Origin: Dehalogenimonas lykanthroporepellens BL-DC-9 | GTDB taxonomy: Bacteria > Chloroflexota > Dehalococcoidia > Dehalococcoidales > Dehalococcoidaceae | Length of the DNA stretch: 64,000 nt | Direction: 5' to 3' | Assembly (NCBI GenBank): GCA_000143165.1 | Contig: CP002084.1 | Location: 744,001 to 808,000, forward strand | Part shown: positions 33,041 through 46,448 of the stretch, one piece after another | Layout of the letters: every line of letters starts with the position of its first letter | How positions within the stretch are numbered: the stretch's first letter is position 1 | Made by a program: the position numbers and the translations under genes | The notes under the pieces: model-generated | The model's input: the letters and a program-made list of their open reading frames with translations, nothing else | Databases searched by the model: none | What the model was told of the DNA's origin: nothing

Positions 33041-33901
33041 ATGCGTCATACTGAAGGCACATTTGACAATGGTTGCTCCGGCGGTCTGTACTATCAAGTT
33101 TGGACTCCGGACAGCCCCTCAACCGGAACGGTCATTCTGGTACACGGTTTGGCTGAACATTCCGGTCGTTACCAGCCGGTGGCCGAACGGCTGGTTCGGG
33201 CCGGTTTCACCGTCCGTGCTTTCGACCAGCGAGGGCACGGGCGTTCGCCAGGCCAGCGTTGTTATGTAAACAGTTTTGAGGACCTTACCAGTGACCTGAA
33301 TCAGTTCATTCAGGCATCTTTTGAAAATCACCCCGGCAGACCGCTGTTTCTCATGGGTCACAGCCTCGGCGCCCTGGAAGTGGCGGCTTATCTGACGACC
33401 CGGCCTAAAGATATCGCCGGGGCAGTGATTTCCGGTATTCCCCTAGACATTGAAGCCAGTCTGCCCCGGATACTGGTCAAATTGGCCGATGTATTTTCCG
33501 CTCTGGTTCCCCGGTTAGGTATCCGGAAACTACCATCAACTACCATCAGCCGTGAAAGCCAGGTGGTCAGGGATTATGTCAATGACCCGCTGGTGCATAC
33601 CGGCCGGATACCGGCGCGAATGGGTGCCGAGCTGATGCGGACCGTTCGGCAGACCCGCGATAAACTTCGGCGTATCCGCGCGCCGTTGTTAATATTGCAC
33701 GGTGGCGGCGACCGTATGGCCGCCCCTGCCGGGAGCCGTCTGTTGTACCAGACGGCAGGAAGCTCCGACAAGGAACTGAAAATCATGGCCGACTGCTATC
33801 ACGAGGTCTATAATGAAGCCTGCCGCGATGAAGTATTGAATCTGGTCATCGACTGGCTGAACCGCCGCAGAATCATGATCACAGCTTCAGCAACGGCTTA
33901 A
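33041..33901 (+). CDS. alpha/beta hydrolase, monoacylglycerol lipase-like
   Basis: This 286-aa serine hydrolase has the oxyanion strand VILVHGLAEHSGRY, AFDQRGHGRSPG, the nucleophile elbow FLMGHSLGALE and a late LILHGGGDRMAAPAGSR (acid) followed by DCYHEVYNE (catalytic His). This matches the monoacylglycerol lipase/lysophospholipase family (Hydrolase_4). No signal peptide, so it is probably cytoplasmic. Its last 23 nt overlap the end of the converging uvrA. Confidence 0.85.
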   Translation: MRHTEGTFDNGCSGGLYYQVWTPDSPSTGTVILVHGLAEHSGRYQPVAERLVRAGFTVRAFDQRGHGRSPGQRCYVNSFEDLTSDLNQFIQASFENHPGRPLFLMGHSLGALEVAAYLTTRPKDIAGAVISGIPLDIEASLPRILVKLADVFSALVPRLGIRKLPSTTISRESQVVRDYVNDPLVHTGRIPARMGAELMRTVRQTRDKLRRIRAPLLILHGGGDRMAAPAGSRLLYQTAGSSDKELKIMADCYHEVYNEACRDEVLNLVIDWLNRRRIMITASATA

Positions 33902-36707
33902 GATATCCCGCTGTCGCCGACAGCGGGATATCGGCAATTTGCTCCGGAGTGCCAACGCCTACTATTTCTCCACCCCGATGACCGGCGCCCGGCCCCAGAT
34001 CGATAATCCAATCGGCATTCTTGATGATGTCCAGTTGATGCTCAATGACAACCACAGAATTGCCGACATCAACCAGTCGCTGTAATACTTTGAGCAAGGC
34101 GGCGATATCTTCAAACGACAACCCCGTGGTCGGCTCATCCAGAATATACAGCGTGTGGCCAGACGGTCGCCGGGCCAGTTCAGTAGCCAGCTTGATTCGC
34201 TGGGCTTCCCCGCCGGAAAGAGTGGGTGCCGGCTGTCCCAGCCGGATATAACCCAGACCGACGTCATGCATGCTTTTAAGTTTATTCATGACCGATGGAA
34301 TATGGGTAAAAAACTCCAGCGCATGATCCACCGTCATATCGAGCACATCGGCAATATTCTGACCCTTGAAGCGGATGTCCAGAACCTCTCTGGAATAACG
34401 GCGGCCACGACAGATTTCGCACGGAACAGTTACGTCGGGTAAAAACTGCATCTCAATCTCAATGTAGCCGTCACCCTTACAGGCTTCACACCGCCCGCCT
34501 TTGACATTGAAGGAAAAACGCCCAGAATTATATCCACGCACCCTGGCTTCAGGCAGGCTGGCAAATAAATCACGAATAGGCGTAAAGGCCGCGGTATAGG
34601 TGGCCGGATTGCTCCTGGGGGTACGCCCGATAGGCGCCTGGTCGATGGCAATTACTTTATCAATGTATTCGAGACCATCAATGCCGTCATGATCGCCGGG
34701 TTTGTCCCGGGCGCCATGAAATTCATGGGCCAGCTTCTTAAAAAGAATTTCGTTGACCAGGGTGCTTTTACCGGAACCAGAAACGCCCGAAATGCAGACG
34801 AGCCGGCCGAGGGGTATTTGAACATCTATGTTTTTCAGATTATTCTGACGCGCGCCCCTGACGACCATCTCCCTTCCGTTGCCGGTCCGCCTGACGGCCG
34901 GAAGCGGTATGGTCTTACGACCGGACAGATACTGTCCGGTTATCGAATCACGGCTATCCAGTACTTGGTCCAGCGAGCCGGAAACGACGACATGCCCCCC
35001 CCCTTCGCCAGATCCCGGCCCCATATCTACAATCCAGTCAGCGGCTCGCATCATGGCCTCATCGTGTTCGACCACGATGATGGAGTTGCCCAAATCCCGC
35101 AGGCGCAAAAGGGTATTGATCAACCGGGAATCATCAGCCGGATGCAGGCCGACGGTGGGTTCATCACAGATATAGAGTACGCCCATAAGTCCCGAACCGA
35201 TTTGAGTAGCCAGCCGTATCCGCTGGGACTCACCGCCCGACAGGGTTGCCGAGGCCCGGTCCACGGACAGGTAATCCAGACCTACATCGTGAAGAAAACC
35301 CAGCCTGGAGGTCAGTTCTTTGAGTATCTGGCGCGCAATGAGGCGTTCCTTTTCCGTAAACGGGGTATCCTGACTTTCGAGTCTTGTAACCCAACCCAGG
35401 CTTTCGGTGATGGACATGGCGGAGACTTCGGCAATGTTTTTGCCATCGATAAGAACAGCCAAGGCTTCGGTTTTCAAACGTCGCCCTCCACAGGAAGCGC
35501 AGAGTTTGTCTACCATATACCGGCCGATACCAGCCTTAACCTGTTCCGATTCCGAATCCTTGAAAAGACGTTCCAGCCGGGGGATGACCCCCTCAAAGCC
35601 GGAGGTGTATTCCCGGGTTTTACCGAACCGGTTTTTGACTTTGTAACGACGGCCGCCTTCACCATACAGCACCAAGTCCAGCTGTTCCTCGGTCAGTTGT
35701 TCAACCGGCGTGTCCAGACTGAAGCGGTGTCGTCGGGCGACATCAGCCAGCTGAGAAAAATACCATGTCTGCCATTGATACGGATGAATGGCGCCTTCAG
35801 CCAGGGTCAGCTTCCGGTTGGGGATTACAAGATCCGGGTCGAATTCCATCTTGATGCCCAGACCGGTGCAATCCGGGCAGGCGCCGTGAGGCGAATTGAA
35901 GGAAAAACTGCGGGGCTCTATTTCCCCCATCGAAATACCGCATTCGGCACAGGCAAAATTCTCAGAAAAAAGATGTTCCTGGCCGTCGATAACCGAAACC
36001 AGTACCGTGCCTTCACCCAGTTTCAAAGCGGTTTCCACCGAATCAGCCAGCCGGCTTTGAGTGTCGGACTGGCCGATAACCAGCCGGTCAACGACGACCT
36101 CAACCCGGTGCTTTTTATTCTTATCGAGTTCGATTTCTTCCGACAGATCCCGGATACCGCCATCGACCCGCACCCTGGCGTAACCGGACTTCCTCAAGTC
36201 CCTGAAAACGGCCAGGTGTTCCCCTTTTCGGTCCTTGACCATAGGCGCCAATATCATGATGCGTGAACCCTCGGGTAGTCCCTGTACCGTATCGACTATC
36301 TGCTCCACCGTTTGCATGGCGATTTCCCGGCCGCATTCGGGACAATGGGGGTGGCCGACCCGGGCGAACAACAGGCGCAGATAATCGTATATTTCAGTGG
36401 TGGTACCGACGGTGGAACGTGGGTTGCGGGAACTGCCCTTCTGGTCAATCGAGATGGACGGCGACAACCCTTCAATGTAATCGACATCGGGTTTCTCCAT
36501 GCGACCCAGGAACTGCCGGGCATAAGCAGATAGAGATTCCATATAACGGCGCTGTCCTTCAGCATAGATGGTGTCGAAAGCCAGCGAGCTTTTACCGGAA
36601 CCGGATGCCCCGGTGATGACGACCAGTTTTTCACGCGGGATGGTGACGTCTATATTCTTAAGGTTATGCTCACGCGCCCCTTTTACGATTATCTTGTCCA
36701 GCGGCAT
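33879..36707 (-). CDS. uvrA: excinuclease ABC subunit A
   Basis: This 942-aa damage-recognition ATPase of nucleotide excision repair has two ABC modules. Walker A motifs are GASGSGKSSLAFDT (about residue 33) and GVSGSGKSTLVNEI (about 640). Zinc fingers are CPECG and CxxC...CPDC in the first half and GGRCEACKGDG in the second. Signature motifs are LSGGESQRIRLATQIGSGL and LSGGEAQRIKLATELAR. Full length and intact. The start has AAGGAG upstream and a TATAAT promoter further up. Confidence 0.97.
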   Translation of the reverse strand: MPLDKIIVKGAREHNLKNIDVTIPREKLVVITGASGSGKSSLAFDTIYAEGQRRYMESLSAYARQFLGRMEKPDVDYIEGLSPSISIDQKGSSRNPRSTVGTTTEIYDYLRLLFARVGHPHCPECGREIAMQTVEQIVDTVQGLPEGSRIMILAPMVKDRKGEHLAVFRDLRKSGYARVRVDGGIRDLSEEIELDKNKKHRVEVVVDRLVIGQSDTQSRLADSVETALKLGEGTVLVSVIDGQEHLFSENFACAECGISMGEIEPRSFSFNSPHGACPDCTGLGIKMEFDPDLVIPNRKLTLAEGAIHPYQWQTWYFSQLADVARRHRFSLDTPVEQLTEEQLDLVLYGEGGRRYKVKNRFGKTREYTSGFEGVIPRLERLFKDSESEQVKAGIGRYMVDKLCASCGGRRLKTEALAVLIDGKNIAEVSAMSITESLGWVTRLESQDTPFTEKERLIARQILKELTSRLGFLHDVGLDYLSVDRASATLSGGESQRIRLATQIGSGLMGVLYICDEPTVGLHPADDSRLINTLLRLRDLGNSIIVVEHDEAMMRAADWIVDMGPGSGEGGGHVVVSGSLDQVLDSRDSITGQYLSGRKTIPLPAVRRTGNGREMVVRGARQNNLKNIDVQIPLGRLVCISGVSGSGKSTLVNEILFKKLAHEFHGARDKPGDHDGIDGLEYIDKVIAIDQAPIGRTPRSNPATYTAAFTPIRDLFASLPEARVRGYNSGRFSFNVKGGRCEACKGDGYIEIEMQFLPDVTVPCEICRGRRYSREVLDIRFKGQNIADVLDMTVDHALEFFTHIPSVMNKLKSMHDVGLGYIRLGQPAPTLSGGEAQRIKLATELARRPSGHTLYILDEPTTGLSFEDIAALLKVLQRLVDVGNSVVVIEHQLDIIKNADWIIDLGPGAGHRGGEIVGVGTPEQIADIPLSATAGYLKPLLKL

Positions 36708-36834: not shown

Positions 36835-37092
36835 CTGTTTCCGGCATTTACCGGCAGTGATAATCAAGAAAACAACCTCGATAAAATATCAGGTCGATAT
36901 CCATATTATAAATATAATTACTTGCTAATATGATACCTATTTTAGAACATATTATAGCTTTCAGCAATCATTGTCAACGGCCTTTTGTCACACCCCGAGC
37001 AAGTGCAGTAACCACCTGCCCGAAAGGCAGGCGTATTTGGCAACATCGCCTTGATTTGGTAGACTTCGGCTACTCCCGTGACGAGGATTCCC

Positions 37093-38598
37093 ATGGATTT
37101 GACAACTTTTCTTGCCGACGCGGCGCGCCGGCATGGTGATAGAACAGCATTCAAAATGGGTGACCGACTTCTGTCGTACGCCGACCTCAACACGTTATCC
37201 AACGGCCTGGCGAACGAACTGGTCAAACACGGCGTCAAGCCGGGAACCCGTATCGCTCTGTTGATGGAAAACAGCGTAGATTTCCCGGTAGTATATTTCG
37301 GCATCGTTAAAGCCGGGGCAGTGGCTGTCCCCCTGGATACCAAATACAAACCGGTCGAGCTCAAAGCTGTCTTCAACGACTGTCGTCCGAAATGGCTTTT
37401 CGTAGAACCCTCTCTGGCCAGGAAATTCAACCGGTTTTTCGAGTCATGCGACCATCTGGAGAAAATCGTGACCGTCGGAAACGGCGACGAAACCGCCACC
37501 CCCCTGAGTGCTTTGCTCCACGACTCCGAAGCGCCGCCGACAGTTACCGAGTGCCCCGAACTGGCGCACATCGCCTATACTTCAGGTCCGACCCTGCGAC
37601 CGCACGGAGTTGAAATAACCCAGCAGGCTCTTATAGAAGCCGCCGCCGGTTCCGCGGCCGGTTTCCGCCAGGATGAAAACGATACAGCCATACTCTTCGC
37701 GTTGCCGCTTCATCACACCATGGGCATCACCATCATCATGATGACCTGCCTCTTTGCCGGCAGTTCCATTGTGATGATCGGTGGAATTTCCATCGACGCC
37801 GTACTGTGCGCCATCGAACGGGAAAGAGCCACCATGTTCCACGGTGTTCCGTTTATCCACGCCATGATCGTCAACCATATCAGGAATAACGGCCTGAAAT
37901 ACGACCTGCGCTCCCTGAGAATGTGCGGCAGTGCCGGAGCGCCGATACCGGTAAATACGATTATAGCCTTCGAGGAACTTACCGGCAGGAATCTCATCCA
38001 ATATTACGGCTTGACCGAATCAGTGACGCACGTCACCTGCCAGAATGTGACCATATCGGGGCGCAACGGCAGTGTCGGCCCGGCAATACCAGGTTTCCGT
38101 GTTCGAGTGGTTGATGAGGACGGACATGACATGGCGACCGGCGAACCGGGTGAAGTAATCATCGCCGGTCCCATCATGCGAGGTTATCATAATCTGCCAC
38201 AAGAGAACCGGAAGTATATCCGCAACGGCTGGCTCTACACCGACGATATCGGCTATCTTGACGGACATGGCGAACTCTTCATCACCGGAGTTAAAAAGCC
38301 GATGCTGATCACTAAAGGCCAGAACATTTATTTTTCCGATATCGCCGACATCCTGTCCACACACCCCGACATAGAAGAAGCGGCCGCTTCAGGCATCCCG
38401 GACCCTGACGGCATGAGAGGCGAGGTAGTACTGGCGGTAGTCAGGCTCAAGGCCGGCGTCGAGCTGTCCGAGCAACAAGTCAAGAAGTATTGCCTGGATA
38501 ATCTGGCTAACTACAAATGCCCGAAGAAAGTGCTGTTCGTTCCGGAAATTCCGCGCCACGATAATGGTCAACCGGCATTATTCGGGTTGTTGGAATAA
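37093..38598 (+). CDS. AMP-binding (acyl-CoA synthetase-like) protein with altered catalytic motifs
   Basis: This 501-aa protein has the ANL-superfamily fold: LSYADLNTLSNGLANEL, YTSG at 162-165, LPLHHTMG, YGLTES and YTDDIGYLDGHGELFITG. Catalytic motifs are degraded. The phosphate loop YTSGTTGxPKG reads YTSGPTLRPHG (162-172), the hinge GRxKD reads GVKKP, and the C-terminal catalytic GK is GQ (Q493). It may be inactive, use different chemistry or serve as a ligand-binding protein. ATG 37093 has GAGG 6 nt upstream and was preferred over GTG 37078. Confidence 0.8.
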   Translation: MDLTTFLADAARRHGDRTAFKMGDRLLSYADLNTLSNGLANELVKHGVKPGTRIALLMENSVDFPVVYFGIVKAGAVAVPLDTKYKPVELKAVFNDCRPKWLFVEPSLARKFNRFFESCDHLEKIVTVGNGDETATPLSALLHDSEAPPTVTECPELAHIAYTSGPTLRPHGVEITQQALIEAAAGSAAGFRQDENDTAILFALPLHHTMGITIIMMTCLFAGSSIVMIGGISIDAVLCAIERERATMFHGVPFIHAMIVNHIRNNGLKYDLRSLRMCGSAGAPIPVNTIIAFEELTGRNLIQYYGLTESVTHVTCQNVTISGRNGSVGPAIPGFRVRVVDEDGHDMATGEPGEVIIAGPIMRGYHNLPQENRKYIRNGWLYTDDIGYLDGHGELFITGVKKPMLITKGQNIYFSDIADILSTHPDIEEAAASGIPDPDGMRGEVVLAVVRLKAGVELSEQQVKKYCLDNLANYKCPKKVLFVPEIPRHDNGQPALFGLLE

Positions 38599-38647: not shown

Positions 38648-39244
38648 ATGATGAAAAAGATGGCAGTTCCGGCATCGGATGTGAATAAAATCCACAGTCT
38701 GGTACCGCCGCCCCACCTCGGGGCGGTCGGCCGGCCGACACTGGTGGCCCTGGTGGGGCTTCCCGGCTCGGGAAAAAGTTATCTGGCGGCTAAACTGGGG
38801 CAGAAAACTCCCCTGGCGGTTCTGGAAAGCGACCGGATAAGAAAATCCATCATCGCCAATCCAGTTTATTCCGAAGCTGAACATACCCGCGTTTTCAATG
38901 CCATCTATACAGCCGCCGAGGAATATCTGAAATCCGGACGTGACGTCCTGATTGATGCCACCAATCTCAACCGTAAATGGCGGGCGCCACTCAGACGGAT
39001 TGCCCGGAACACCGGAGTCCGTTTCATAATTATCTACCTGGCCACGCCCAGACAGACTGCCCGGGAACGACTGGCCGGCCGGAGCCGTCAGGCGGACGCC
39101 ATTTCAGACGCCGACTGGGAAGTGTATCAGATGCTGGAAAAGCGGATGGAAGTGCCCGGCTCTCCCAACTATATAATCCATCCGGATACTGATTTATCGA
39201 CAGCAGTCGAAAAAATAGCCGGTGACATCAATAAAAACAGATAG
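38648..39244 (+). CDS. P-loop kinase / AAA-ATPase domain protein
   Basis: This 198-aa single-domain P-loop protein shows Walker A VGLPGSGKSYLAAKL (about 36-50), LESDRIRKSI, a DVLIDATNLNRKWRAPLRRI strand-helix and a LAT-PRQTARERLAGRSRQ lid with arginines. This is the pattern of polynucleotide-kinase-like or zeta-like small kinases that phosphorylate a small molecule or nucleic acid 5' end. The substrate is unknown. It ends 9 nt before pepA, and the two are probably co-transcribed. Confidence 0.75.
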   Translation: MMKKMAVPASDVNKIHSLVPPPHLGAVGRPTLVALVGLPGSGKSYLAAKLGQKTPLAVLESDRIRKSIIANPVYSEAEHTRVFNAIYTAAEEYLKSGRDVLIDATNLNRKWRAPLRRIARNTGVRFIIIYLATPRQTARERLAGRSRQADAISDADWEVYQMLEKRMEVPGSPNYIIHPDTDLSTAVEKIAGDINKNR

Positions 39245-39253
39245 TGAGGTTAC

Positions 39254-40750
39254 ATGAAAATAGAACTGCTCAAAGACAAGTCAATCAAACCTGCCGCAGA
39301 CGCGGTGATAATCGGCATCTGGGAAGAGGAGACCGATGCTATCCCCGACCCGGAATTGATGGAGTTGACCGCCCGATTACGCCGGAATAAGGAGATAAAA
39401 GGATCCGCCTCCGAGATAACCCTCATCCACGGTCTGTCCCGACCCGATGTCGGTAAATTCCTTTTACTGGGACTGGGAAAGAAAACGGAGATTACCCGAC
39501 CGAAACTGCGTTCCATACTGGCCGATGGTTGCCGGAGCGCCCATCGAAGCCGGAGCCGTTCTCTGACCTTCATCCTGCCGGACACCGGAATTAACGCCGC
39601 CGATACCGGCCACGCCCTGGCCGAAGCGGCGGTCATGGGCAGTTATGCTTTCGAGCGTTACCTCACCAAAAAGAGTGAATACCAGCCGTTTCTGTCAATC
39701 GGCCTGTCAGAAGAAACGGGGTTCGACGTTGGCGCCTTTCAACGGGGTGTGGCGCAGGGACTGGCCGTCGGTGAAGCGGTCTGCACTGCGCGCGACCTGG
39801 CCAACGAGCCTTCCAACCATATGACCCCGGCAGTGATGGCCGAAACCGCCCTGTCTATCGGCGAAGAAGAAAACATCGAGGTCGAGGTCATCGAGCGGGA
39901 AACGATGGCAGAACTGGGTATGGGCGGCCTGCTGGCGGTATCAAATGGTTCTGCTTCATCTAATCCACCGAAACTGATAATCATGAAATATCGGGGCAGT
40001 GACGATGAAGTCTGGGATCTGGGGCTGGTCGGCAAAGGACTGACGTTTGATTCCGGCGGCATCTCCATCAAACCGTCAGACAAGCTGGAAGAAATGAAGT
40101 TCGATATGAGCGGCGGCGCCGCCGTCATCGCCGCCATGAAGGCTGTCGGCCGTCTCAAACCCCGTGTGAACGTCATCGCCGCTGTGCCGGCGACTGAAAA
40201 TATGCCCGACGGCGGCGCCTTCAAACCAGGTGATGTAATCAAAATGCTCAACGGTAAAACGGTGGAAGTCATTTCCACCGATGCCGAGGGCCGCCTGATA
40301 CTGGCAGACGCCCTGACTTATATCGACCGTGAAAAGCCGAAAGCGCTAGTCGATGTGGCAACCCTGACCGGCGCAGTAATCATCGCTCTGGGCAATCAGG
40401 CCTCGGCCGCGGTTTCCAACAACCCGGAGTTGGCTGAAAAAGTCATCGCCGCCGGGGAATCAGCCGGTGAGCGTATCTGGCAGTTGCCGGCCTGGCCGGA
40501 ATACCGGGAGCAGTATAAAGGCGTTTACAGCGATATTCGGAATGTCGGCGGCCGTCCCGCCGGCACTATCACCGCCGGTCTTTTCCTGTCGGAATTCATC
40601 TCATCCGAAACGCCGTGGGTTCACCTGGATATCGCCGGCACCGCCTGGGGTGATAAGGAAAAAGGCCATCTGACCAAGGGGGCTACCGGAACTCCGGTGG
40701 CGACACTGGTGAATCTGGCCATGGCGCTGGCTGATACCGGTAATGCCTGA
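39254..40750 (+). CDS. pepA: leucyl aminopeptidase (M17)
   Basis: This 498-aa cytosolic di-zinc exopeptidase removes N-terminal residues. The catalytic domain has GKGLTFDSGGISIKPSDKLEEMKFDMSGGAAV and the M17 signature STDAEGRLILADAL (the usual NTDAEGR), containing metal ligands and the catalytic Arg. The N-terminal macro-like domain (about 1-170) is conserved in layout. GAGG precedes the ATG. Length is normal. Confidence 0.95.
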   Translation: MKIELLKDKSIKPAADAVIIGIWEEETDAIPDPELMELTARLRRNKEIKGSASEITLIHGLSRPDVGKFLLLGLGKKTEITRPKLRSILADGCRSAHRSRSRSLTFILPDTGINAADTGHALAEAAVMGSYAFERYLTKKSEYQPFLSIGLSEETGFDVGAFQRGVAQGLAVGEAVCTARDLANEPSNHMTPAVMAETALSIGEEENIEVEVIERETMAELGMGGLLAVSNGSASSNPPKLIIMKYRGSDDEVWDLGLVGKGLTFDSGGISIKPSDKLEEMKFDMSGGAAVIAAMKAVGRLKPRVNVIAAVPATENMPDGGAFKPGDVIKMLNGKTVEVISTDAEGRLILADALTYIDREKPKALVDVATLTGAVIIALGNQASAAVSNNPELAEKVIAAGESAGERIWQLPAWPEYREQYKGVYSDIRNVGGRPAGTITAGLFLSEFISSETPWVHLDIAGTAWGDKEKGHLTKGATGTPVATLVNLAMALADTGNA

Positions 40751-44307: not shown

Positions 44308-44817
44308 GTGGCTCGAAACAAAAAAGTAAAAGATGATTTTATATTTGCTGTCATTTTTATCAGTCTCATAGCTTTAGCCCTCATCATGGATTGGTGGAAG
44401 GCAAACGCTGTGTTAGGATGGACTATTATTGGTATCGTGGCTGTTTCGACTGGTTTCTTTCTGTATAAATCAGGGCGATTCAGAGCTAGTATTAAAAATG
44501 CTACCAAATCCACAGCTACCAAATTGGTATTTGAAAACGAAGCTAATGAAAGAGAACCGTTGCCACCCCAAGTACGTCAAGAGGTCATGAGGAGGGCAAA
44601 GCATAGATGCGAAAATGAAGAATGTTCTTATTCTCGCACTCTTCATATCCACCACATTGATATGGACAATTCGAACAATCGACTTTTTAACTTGATTGCG
44701 CTCTGCCCCAATTGTCACAAGGATGCTCACAACGGATATATCACGTCAACCCAATGCAGAAATTGGGTTAATCGAGACTATCATCAACTAAAAGTATCTC
44801 GATTCAGGAAATTCTGA
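44308..44817 (+). CDS. membrane-anchored HNH endonuclease (island gene 1)
   Basis: The 169-aa protein has two N-terminal transmembrane helices (about 11-29 and 36-53) and a cytoplasmic HNH domain (about 85-145). The nuclease motif is complete: C101/C106 and C133-PN-C136 zinc ligands, the catalytic H115-H116 pair (HIHHID), N124 in the middle and H137/H141 at the end. A membrane-tethered DNA nuclease fits a defence effector that degrades incoming DNA at the membrane. It starts at GTG with a GGGGGGG Shine-Dalgarno. Composition is AT-rich. It lies 61 nt upstream of the DUF262 gene. Confidence 0.82.
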   Translation: MARNKKVKDDFIFAVIFISLIALALIMDWWKANAVLGWTIIGIVAVSTGFFLYKSGRFRASIKNATKSTATKLVFENEANEREPLPPQVRQEVMRRAKHRCENEECSYSRTLHIHHIDMDNSNNRLFNLIALCPNCHKDAHNGYITSTQCRNWVNRDYHQLKVSRFRKF

Positions 44818-44878
44818 TGATGTTTTAGTCCTTGAAACAATAACATATGCATATACCCAATTAATTAGAGAGGTCATT

Positions 44879-45976
44879 ATGGTGAATTCAAGCAATTTTA
44901 ACCCTGAGAGACAAGTCATTGATGAAGCGTCAAAGGATGACACTGTTGTTCCTATAAAATATGAAATAACTTCTTTTGGTGCCGACTACGACGCTGAAGG
45001 ATTGGTGAAAAGACTTATTCGAGAAGACATATATATTCCACCATTCCAAAGAGCGTATGTTTGGAATATCAACGAAGCCTCACGTTTTATCGAGTCGCTT
45101 CTACTAGGATTACCCGTTCCTGGGATTTTTTTAGCAAAAGAATCGGAATCAAATAAATTGCTCGTGATCGATGGACAGCAAAGACTTAAATCACTTGAAT
45201 TTTTCTTCAAAGGATATTTTCAGCCTGACCCGGAAACCTCTTCAAGAAGAGTATTTCGATTATCAAATGTTCAAAAGAAATATCTCGATAAGACCTATGA
45301 TACCCTTGACCCAAGCGACAAAGTCGCATTAAACGATTCAATAATACACGCAACAATCGTCAAACAAGAATCACCAAGAGAGGATGATTCGAGCATCTAC
45401 CACATCTTTGAACGACTAAACAATACTGGTAGAAAACTTGCCCCTCAGCAGATAAGAGTAGCGATTGACCATGGAGATTTCGTAGACACGCTTCATGAAT
45501 TAAATAACGAACCCAATTGGAGAACAATATTTGGTTCTAAAAGCCTTATTCTGAAAGACCAAGAATTAATTTTGCGCTTTCTCGCTTTATATTTTGAGCA
45601 TGAAACTTATTTTAGACCAATGGAAGAATTTCTCAATCAATTTAGTCGGAAACATAGGCACTGTTCTCAAGAATTTTGTACTGAGGCTTCGACTATTTTT
45701 AAAAACACTGTTTCTCTTATCAATGAGACTGTCGGTAAACGGGCTTTCAGAACAAAAGCGCCCAGAGCTCTCAATGCGGCTGTCTTTGATTCAGTAATGG
45801 TTGGGTTAGCAAAACGTATTTCCTCGAACACACAAATTGACAAAGAATCTGTTGTTCGGCAATATTCGGCTCTTTTACAAAACAATTCTTATAGGGAGTC
45901 TGTAGAGAAAGCTACATCAAACGAAAATAGTGTAAAAACGCGCATCGATATAGCTATCAGGACTTTTCAGGTTTAA
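44879..45976 (+). CDS. DUF262 (ParB/GmrS-like) protein (island gene 2)
   Basis: This 365-aa protein has the DUF262 signature: IPPFQRAYVW (about 53-62), LLLGLPVPGIFLA, DGQQRLKSL (98-106) and FERLNNTGRKLAPQQIR (177-193). DUF262 is the nucleotide-hydrolysing GmrS half of GmrSD type IV restriction enzymes. The DUF1524 HNH half that normally follows is absent, and the C-terminus is helical without known motifs. A separate HNH nuclease is encoded just upstream, so the two may work as a split GmrSD-like pair (inference). The stop is 1 nt before the HEPN gene start. Confidence 0.85.
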   Translation: MVNSSNFNPERQVIDEASKDDTVVPIKYEITSFGADYDAEGLVKRLIREDIYIPPFQRAYVWNINEASRFIESLLLGLPVPGIFLAKESESNKLLVIDGQQRLKSLEFFFKGYFQPDPETSSRRVFRLSNVQKKYLDKTYDTLDPSDKVALNDSIIHATIVKQESPREDDSSIYHIFERLNNTGRKLAPQQIRVAIDHGDFVDTLHELNNEPNWRTIFGSKSLILKDQELILRFLALYFEHETYFRPMEEFLNQFSRKHRHCSQEFCTEASTIFKNTVSLINETVGKRAFRTKAPRALNAAVFDSVMVGLAKRISSNTQIDKESVVRQYSALLQNNSYRESVEKATSNENSVKTRIDIAIRTFQV

Positions 45977-45977
45977 A

Positions 45978-46448
45978 ATGCGTGACGCCGAACTAGTCAG
46001 TCAACTTCAAAGTATCCAATCATTAATTAACAAATCTGGTATTGCAACCAACGACGATATTGAGATGCGCGGCCATTGGGCAAGATATCTTTGTGTTCTT
46101 TGTGCAGGACTATTGGAAAACGCTATCGGCTTGGTCTATCGGAAATATATTAATGATTCTTCAAATCCTAAGGTTGCTGATTTTTCCAATTCTGTTCTTT
46201 CGAAGATAACAAATCCGAATATGAAAAAATTTATTGAGGTTCATAAAATATTTGATATATTATGGGCTGAAGAATTAGAGGCATTTAGTGACGAAAATGG
46301 GGGTAAAGAGGCTATCGATGCAATTATGGCAAACCGTCACAGAATAGTTCATGGTAAATCATCAGATATTTCAATCGCTAGAATCGATGAATATCTAAAA
46401 AGGGCTATCAAAATTATCGAGTTTATGGAGAGCCAAATATATCACTAA
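45978..46448 (+). CDS. HEPN-domain protein (island gene 3)
   Basis: This 156-aa all-helical protein ends with the HEPN active site NRHRIVHG (R120-x4-H125) followed by DISIARIDEYLKRAIKIIEFM. This is the layout of HEPN proteins of the RiboL-PSP/MAE type, commonly RNases in abortive infection and toxin systems. The N-terminal half has an ENAIGLVYRKY helix. It starts 1 nt after the DUF262 stop, so they are translationally coupled and likely form one complex, with HEPN as RNase effector. It may instead be a non-catalytic partner. Confidence 0.8.
   Translation: MRDAELVSQLQSIQSLINKSGIATNDDIEMRGHWARYLCVLCAGLLENAIGLVYRKYINDSSNPKVADFSNSVLSKITNPNMKKFIEVHKIFDILWAEELEAFSDENGGKEAIDAIMANRHRIVHGKSSDISIARIDEYLKRAIKIIEFMESQIYH

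Follow-up and report, generated by a model that had tools for sequence, protein, structure and literature searches.

We identified, within a stretch of 64,000 nucleotides of the Dehalogenimonas lykanthroporepellens BL-DC-9 genome (the window), a gene for a 501-residue protein of the ANL fold, which varies a familiar enzyme fold, is conserved, and is widespread in one order, the Dehalococcoidales. Judged from its residues, this protein may activate free acids with ATP poorly or not at all, and may instead handle acyl groups that have been activated elsewhere, most likely in the setting of membrane-lipid synthesis; we give this reading a probability of roughly 45%. The losses on the ATP side concentrate on the P-loop, the hinge and motif A10, and the residues of the acyl pocket, the Mg/AMP site and the thioester side are invariant. 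Since the sites on the triphosphate side have been released while others have tightened, the ATP activation of free acids would appear to be lost or poor.

The open reading frame runs from an ATG to a stop codon that ends at its last base, and is preceded by GAGG 6 bases 5' of the ATG; an in-frame GTG 15 bases upstream is a possible alternative start. A promoter-like site lies upstream of the gene at 37037-37065, and 7 such sites were found in the scanned stretch versus 3.7 +/- 2.4 in shuffled sequences, so that this site carries little information. The Pfam domains AMP-binding (PF00501, 264 bits) and AMP-binding_C (PF13193, 59 bits) cover most of the protein, and both fold and homology (an N domain plus a C domain) place it in the ANL superfamily. 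It matches 106 NCBIfam families, the best being PRK06187 with 353 bits versus a cut-off of 476, and none of the best 25 of these families attains its curated cut-off. As Pfam and NCBIfam place the protein with the acyl-CoA synthetases, its automatic annotation is likely to be fatty-acid activation. The BL-DC-9 genome (1,686,510 bases, one contig) encodes one more homologue, which is distant (25% identity). The features discussed here are collected in the following table.

Features of the gene, its product and its recurrent neighbours, in positions of the window
Feature	Position	Strand	Basis
ANL-fold acyl-CoA-synthetase-like protein, 501 aa	37093..38598	+	Pfam; AlphaFold2 mean pLDDT 91.5; the 50 structural matches listed are ANL proteins
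Altered P-loop (A3), residues 162-172, YTSGPTLRPHG; canonical S/T166, G168 and K171 lost	37576..37608	+	alignment
His208 (A4), acyl pocket, retained	37714..37716	+	46/46 in clade; motif-matched to His207 of 4-chlorobenzoate:CoA ligase
Glu309 (A5), Mg site, retained	38017..38019	+	46/46 in clade, 81/81 outside
A7 motif, residues 383-385, TDD for TGD; ribose-binding Asp385 kept	38239..38247	+	alignment
Altered hinge (A8), residues 399-403, GVKKP; R400 lost (V400)	38287..38301	+	alignment
Clade signature KGQN, residues 408-411	38314..38325	+	each residue 46/46 in clade
Clade signature Asp416 (Glu outside)	38338..38340	+	D 46/46 in clade; E 79/81 outside
Clade-invariant Arg442	38416..38418	+	R 46/46 in clade, 13/81 outside
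A10 site, residues 492-493, GQ; catalytic Lys lost (Q493)	38566..38571	+	alignment
AAA_33 P-loop kinase-like protein, 198 aa, recurrent neighbour	38648..39244	+	same-strand run in 23/54 clade loci
Leucyl aminopeptidase (M17), recurrent neighbour	39254..40750	+	same-strand run in 25/54 clade loci

An AlphaFold2 model built from a 40-row alignment has a pTM of 0.92, and the 50 best matches listed by a structure search are all ANL proteins, with Z scores up to 49.5. The model superposes full length on 4-coumarate:CoA ligase with bound AMP and CoA (5bsr), with 491 residues at 2.3 Å. However, the model of a relative with canonical motifs (locus L103), which served as a control, superposes alike (497 residues at 2.5 Å). 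Therefore, the predicted arrangement is no evidence for a role in the thioester step only, and we dropped the conformation of the model as functional evidence. Compared with fatty acyl-CoA synthetases of the FadD13 and PRK06187 type, the protein shares the fold, the domain order, both Pfam domains, the pocket His, the Mg-site Glu and the ribose Asp, but differs in lacking the canonical P-loop, the A8 Arg and the A10 Lys, and in its NCBIfam score.

We aligned 46 clade members, which are a sample of the orthologues, with L103 and 81 relatives from outside the clade; one locus (L183) is cut by a contig end. The three changed motifs pointed out in an earlier note on this DNA, in the P-loop, the hinge and the A10 site, are all present in the translation. 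The P-loop, TSGPTLRPHG, departs from the A3 consensus [ST]G[ST]TGxPK. S/T166 is kept in none of the 46 clade members (P in 43, A in 3) versus 75 of the 81 outside relatives, G168 in none versus 79, and K171 in 5 (R in 19, H in 15) versus 77. The hinge residue R400 is kept in 25 clade members and lost in 21, and the A10 residue K493 is kept in 15 and lost in 31, whereas each is found in 76/81 outside. All five residues occur together in 72/81 relatives outside but in 0/46 of the clade; of the nine outside rows without the full set, one is truncated at the end of its contig and six are members of two further groups with deviant motifs. K171, R400 and K493 are jointly lost in 15/46 clade members, including the BL-DC-9 protein, and the clade members L054 and L064 stop short of the A10 site. 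Of the hallmark residues of a functional acyl-CoA synthetase, the protein has the A5 Glu and the A7 Asp, but neither the A8 Arg nor the A10 Lys.

Other positions have been retained or fixed. The remaining P-loop sites are largely kept in the clade (T163 in 41/46, G165 in 42/46, P170 and G172 in 46/46), and H208, E309, T383, D385, G409 and N411 are each found in all 46 members. G384 of motif A7 is kept in 36/46, and TDD at 383-385 is common to the BL-DC-9 protein and its seven orthologues from the same genus. K408 is likewise invariant in the clade versus 3/81 outside, and Q410, found in 46/46, is not among the six commonest residues at its position outside the clade. A Lys at the K408 position is also present in the 4-coumarate:CoA ligase and firefly luciferase families. 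Enzymes of these two families keep the P-loop, the A8 Arg and the A10 Lys.

To avoid choosing sites beforehand, we took all sites at which one residue reaches at least 85% (weighted) in 75 outside relatives, leaving out six deviant rows (L104, L105, L109, L110, L111 and L119), and considered a site lost if that residue falls below 60% in the clade. By this measure 45 of 53 sites are retained and eight are lost, namely, T166, T167, G168 and K171 in the P-loop, R400 and D403 in the hinge, K493 in A10, and E416, so that the three motifs hold seven of the eight; T167 is marginal (T 56%, S 27%). Repeating the test without weights on all 81 outside rows, where 55 sites qualify, returned the identical eight. 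Sites of the P-loop, the A8 Arg and A10 are lost in 6 of 9 cases versus 2 of 44 for the others (Fisher p 9e-5, for a nine-site set that was grouped post hoc). Beyond the lost sites the protein is conserved. The earlier note had overlooked a fourth change, the TDD of motif A7. Newly conserved in the clade are S187, F191, F202, L204, G231 and S233, along with Q410 and R442; the first six probably lie near the acyl pocket, to judge from their closeness to motif A4.

We then placed these changes on a maximum likelihood tree of 83 rows (47 clade rows including L103, and 36 of the 81 outside rows; LG+C20, quick search, SH-aLRT supports), from which the motif columns had been left out. The 47 rows fall on one side of a branch with support 99, and the 46 are grouped within them (99), leaving L103 as their sister; the method infers no root, and we took the polarity from L103 and the outside rows. 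L103 keeps the canonical motifs (TSGTTGNPKG, R400 and K493), yet it already has Q410, N411, D416 and R442, with Ala in place of K408. Within the 47 rows, S/T166 and G168 changed once each, and the hinge Arg requires 3 changes and the A10 Lys at least 12. As the sister has canonical motifs yet most of the signature, these data suggest an order in which most of the thioester-side signature would have arisen first, followed by the P-loop change on the stem, and then by the A10 and hinge losses. The earlier note had the three sites changing together. They are indeed altered jointly in the 15 members mentioned above, but not by one event: the P-loop change is clade-wide, and the hinge and A10 changes came later, the latter repeatedly. 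Likewise, its question whether orthologues share the substitutions has a divided answer, as the P-loop is altered in 46/46, but the hinge Arg and the A10 Lys are lost only in part of the clade.

Two further deviant groups were noticed among the relatives. The class contains a second group of deviant acyl-CoA synthetases (L187, L188, L212 and L214; relatives L104, L105 and two more), whose P-loops are of the YTSGVLGKQKG type in three of four and YVAGMSGKPKG in the fourth, and in which the hinge Arg is found in none of four; L187 and L188 adjoin fatty-acid-synthesis genes. In the other group, from Smithella and other deltaproteobacteria (L109, L110, L111 and L119), the P-loop Lys is replaced by Leu in all four; at the A10 site, two of the sequences have already ended and one more lacks the Lys. 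Since these four stand apart from the clade in the tree, their similar losses may be independent.

How costly such losses are can be gauged from mutants in Table 2 of PMC8388817, apparently numbered after 4-chlorobenzoate:CoA ligase, with counterparts matched here by motif. According to this table, activity drops 2,000-fold for Thr161, 1,000-fold for Gly163, and 500-fold each for His207 and Asp385, and no activity is left for Pro168, while mutants of Gly166 (14-fold) and Lys169 (4-fold) are cheaper and Arg400 costs 100-fold. The BL-DC-9 protein keeps the counterparts of the costliest sites in that table (T163, G165, P170, H208 and D385), and has lost those of Gly166, Lys169 and Arg400, as well as the A10 Lys. 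In the P-loop, the clade as a whole has likewise mostly retained the costly positions and given up the cheaper ones. Because this homologue can do without some of the P-loop residues that are missing here, the protein might still be a working but weak or unusual ligase. Adenylation would then proceed with the altered P-loop, a different residue would do the work of the A10 Lys, and the reaction would perhaps be slow or use some other nucleotide. Retention of T163, G165, P170, H208, E309 and D385, mostly costly sites in PMC8388817, speaks for such an enzyme, as does the A10 Lys of 15/46 members, and the clade-invariant K408 and R442 could substitute for it elsewhere. However, K171, R400 and K493 are gone together in the BL-DC-9 protein and 14 other members, L054 and L064 terminate before the A10 site, and the superfamily is described in PMC6122825 as having an invariant A8 Arg and a fully conserved A10 Lys. 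On balance we doubt this explanation, while giving it some weight.

The genes around the orthologues bear on what the protein may do instead. We examined 54 clade loci, several of them cut by contig ends and one (L067) a partial orthologue; L118 and L195 are probably one contig counted twice, and neither has any counted neighbour in its run. Neighbour families were named by Pfam on one or two representatives each and extended via blastp clusters. Besides the kinase and the aminopeptidase, the same-strand runs contain DegV (13 loci), ATP-grasp_5 (13), FabF (7), PadR (7), HAAS (7) and PlsY (4). The fullest operon, L060, reads ATP-grasp, the ANL gene, FabF, PadR, HAAS, DegV, PlsY, kinase and aminopeptidase, and L061 is similar; in L103, the gene is followed by FabF. 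Of these neighbours, the three genomes from other genera of the family have DegV, the kinase and the aminopeptidase beside the ANL gene, and the eight Dehalogenimonas genomes only the kinase and the aminopeptidase. The run of the BL-DC-9 gene itself contains neither DegV, ATP-grasp, FabF nor PlsY, and uvrA (33879-36707, -) precedes it on the opposite strand. A 525-aa open frame (34689-36266, +) antisense to uvrA is probably a side effect of the uvrA coding frame. Farther along the window, at 44308-46448, inspection of the translations by eye suggests an HNH-endonuclease-like ORF, then a DUF262-like one and a small one, which may be an insertion of mobile or defence-related nature.

Operons with DegV, PlsY, FabF or ATP-grasp, although a minority of the loci, suggest membrane-lipid metabolism. 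DegV proteins are FakB-like. In Firmicutes, as described in PMC12594616, a fatty acid bound by FakB is phosphorylated by FakA, and the resulting acyl phosphate is a substrate of PlsY. All four component types of this FakAB-PlsX-PlsY pathway are matched in the BL-DC-9 genome, and DegV or PlsY adjoin some orthologues; on the other hand, no ANL-type protein is among the components of the pathway as that paper describes it. Elsewhere in the BL-DC-9 genome we found PlsX, two FakA-type matches and five DegV matches, and FabF-like genes close to PlsY-like ones. One of the DegV matches is a remnant with four in-frame stops (G000:C1:929827-930186), just after a FakA-type gene; in several relatives, the DegV gene at this place is intact. 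ATP-grasp as an obligate partner was rejected, as no ATP-grasp_5 match was found in the genomes of BL-DC-9 and G004 among the 11 genomes searched.

Taken with the residue pattern, the reading that we favour is that an ANL protein would have lost the adenylation half of acyl-CoA synthetase chemistry while retaining the acyl pocket, the Mg/AMP site and the thioester-side loop. It would bind and pass on acyl groups pre-activated by other enzymes (as acyl phosphate, acyl-ACP or acyl-CoA), rather than spending ATP of its own on free acids, and its role would lie in membrane-lipid synthesis, through either the thioester half-reaction or acyl binding alone. Against this stand the minority of loci with lipid-gene neighbours, none of which accompany the BL-DC-9 gene with its kinase and aminopeptidase partners, and the persistence of the A10 Lys in 15/46 and of the hinge Arg in 25/46 members, along with the marginal status of T167 and the low cost (14-fold and 4-fold) of the mutants that correspond to two lost P-loop residues.

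Binding alone would make the protein a non-catalytic binder or regulator, such as a sensor of acyl-CoA or acyl-AMP, or a scaffold. The adenylation residues are gone while the pocket is retained, the newly conserved S187, F191, F202, L204 and G231, placed near the pocket via motif A4, would fit one fixed ligand, and some operons include PadR and HAAS genes. However, no clade member deviates at E309, D385, N411 or G409, whose counterparts in relatives contact Mg, ribose or AMP according to PMC8388817, which is more than a lipid binder needs; we thus regard a purely binding role as rather unlikely. Less probable still, in its specific form, is a half-enzyme that carries out the second half-reaction only, moving an acyl group from a ready-made mixed anhydride (acyl phosphate from FakAB/PlsX, or acyl-AMP made elsewhere) to or from CoA or ACP, with K408, D416 and R442 as putative new active-site residues. 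On this reading, an ATP-grasp protein encoded on its own directly upstream could combine with the ANL protein into a composite ligase.

It is very unlikely that the protein stands in for FabH (KAS III) by starting fatty-acid synthesis where FabH is absent. FabH is strongly matched (90-107 bits) in only 6 of the 156 genomes of the order, against 143 with a FabF-type domain, and the deviant relatives L104 and L105 lie in clusters that jointly hold ACP, FabD, FabG, FabF and carboxyltransferase. The other 42 genomes with FabH matches score at most 39 bits, and those matches are probably other proteins of the thiolase superfamily. However, the orthologue is absent from 69 of the 143 FabF-bearing genomes, 64 of which also have no strong FabH match; therefore, replacement of FabH fails as a general rule.

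All eight genomes of the genus carry an orthologue with a full-length open frame and an identical P-loop motif, the other seven being 64-73% identical to the BL-DC-9 protein, and the protein is present in all 11 genomes of the taxonomic family. Across the order, a list compiled by hand includes 78 of 156 genomes with orthologues at 38% identity or more (eleven of them partial matches), whereas the listed paralogues reach at most 34%. In the class, where we searched 393 genomes with a profile of 40 sequences and scored at most three candidates per genome, full-length clade members score at least 673 bits, all others among the matches listed score at most 444, and clade-level scores beyond the order occur only in G252 and G163. 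In the phylum, 12 of 301 genomes match at 1e-150, all from the order. A scan of the genome_contigs collection with the single protein gave no match; with the alignment, at least 595 loci matched, of which the 80 best include two clade members, L118 and L106, the latter from a Dehalococcoidales bacterium. Among the genomes searched, hardly any member of the protein family thus falls outside one order. Our searches of open-licence PMC papers listed no title or abstract on it.

Selection was assessed from dN/dS (Nei-Gojobori), which is 0.078, 0.080, 0.134, 0.120 and 0.101 for five pairs with dS below 1, and 0.089 for one more pair (dS 2.0); two pairs are saturated, one of them being the BL-DC-9 gene and its nearest relative. 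These values point to purifying selection on the orthologues, and for the BL-DC-9 gene itself this would rest on its relatives. With dN/dS of 0.08-0.13, drift to a pseudogene in the family is clearly disfavoured. Recent decay, which the earlier note would have concluded from canonical motifs in orthologues, does not fit either, since S/T166 and G168 are kept in none of the 46. We accordingly rejected a decaying pseudogene, despite the lost motifs, given the open frames and identical P-loop in all eight genomes of the genus and the low dN/dS.

If the ATP half is truly gone, the assignment to fatty-acid activation would mislabel the protein in about half of the 156 genomes searched in the order, which includes the organohalide-respiring Dehalococcoides and Dehalogenimonas. 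Moreover, the stepwise losses, together with a close relative that has all motifs, provide a natural series with which individual ANL residues might be assigned to one half-reaction or the other, and the same series bears on how an ATP-driven enzyme might turn ATP-independent.
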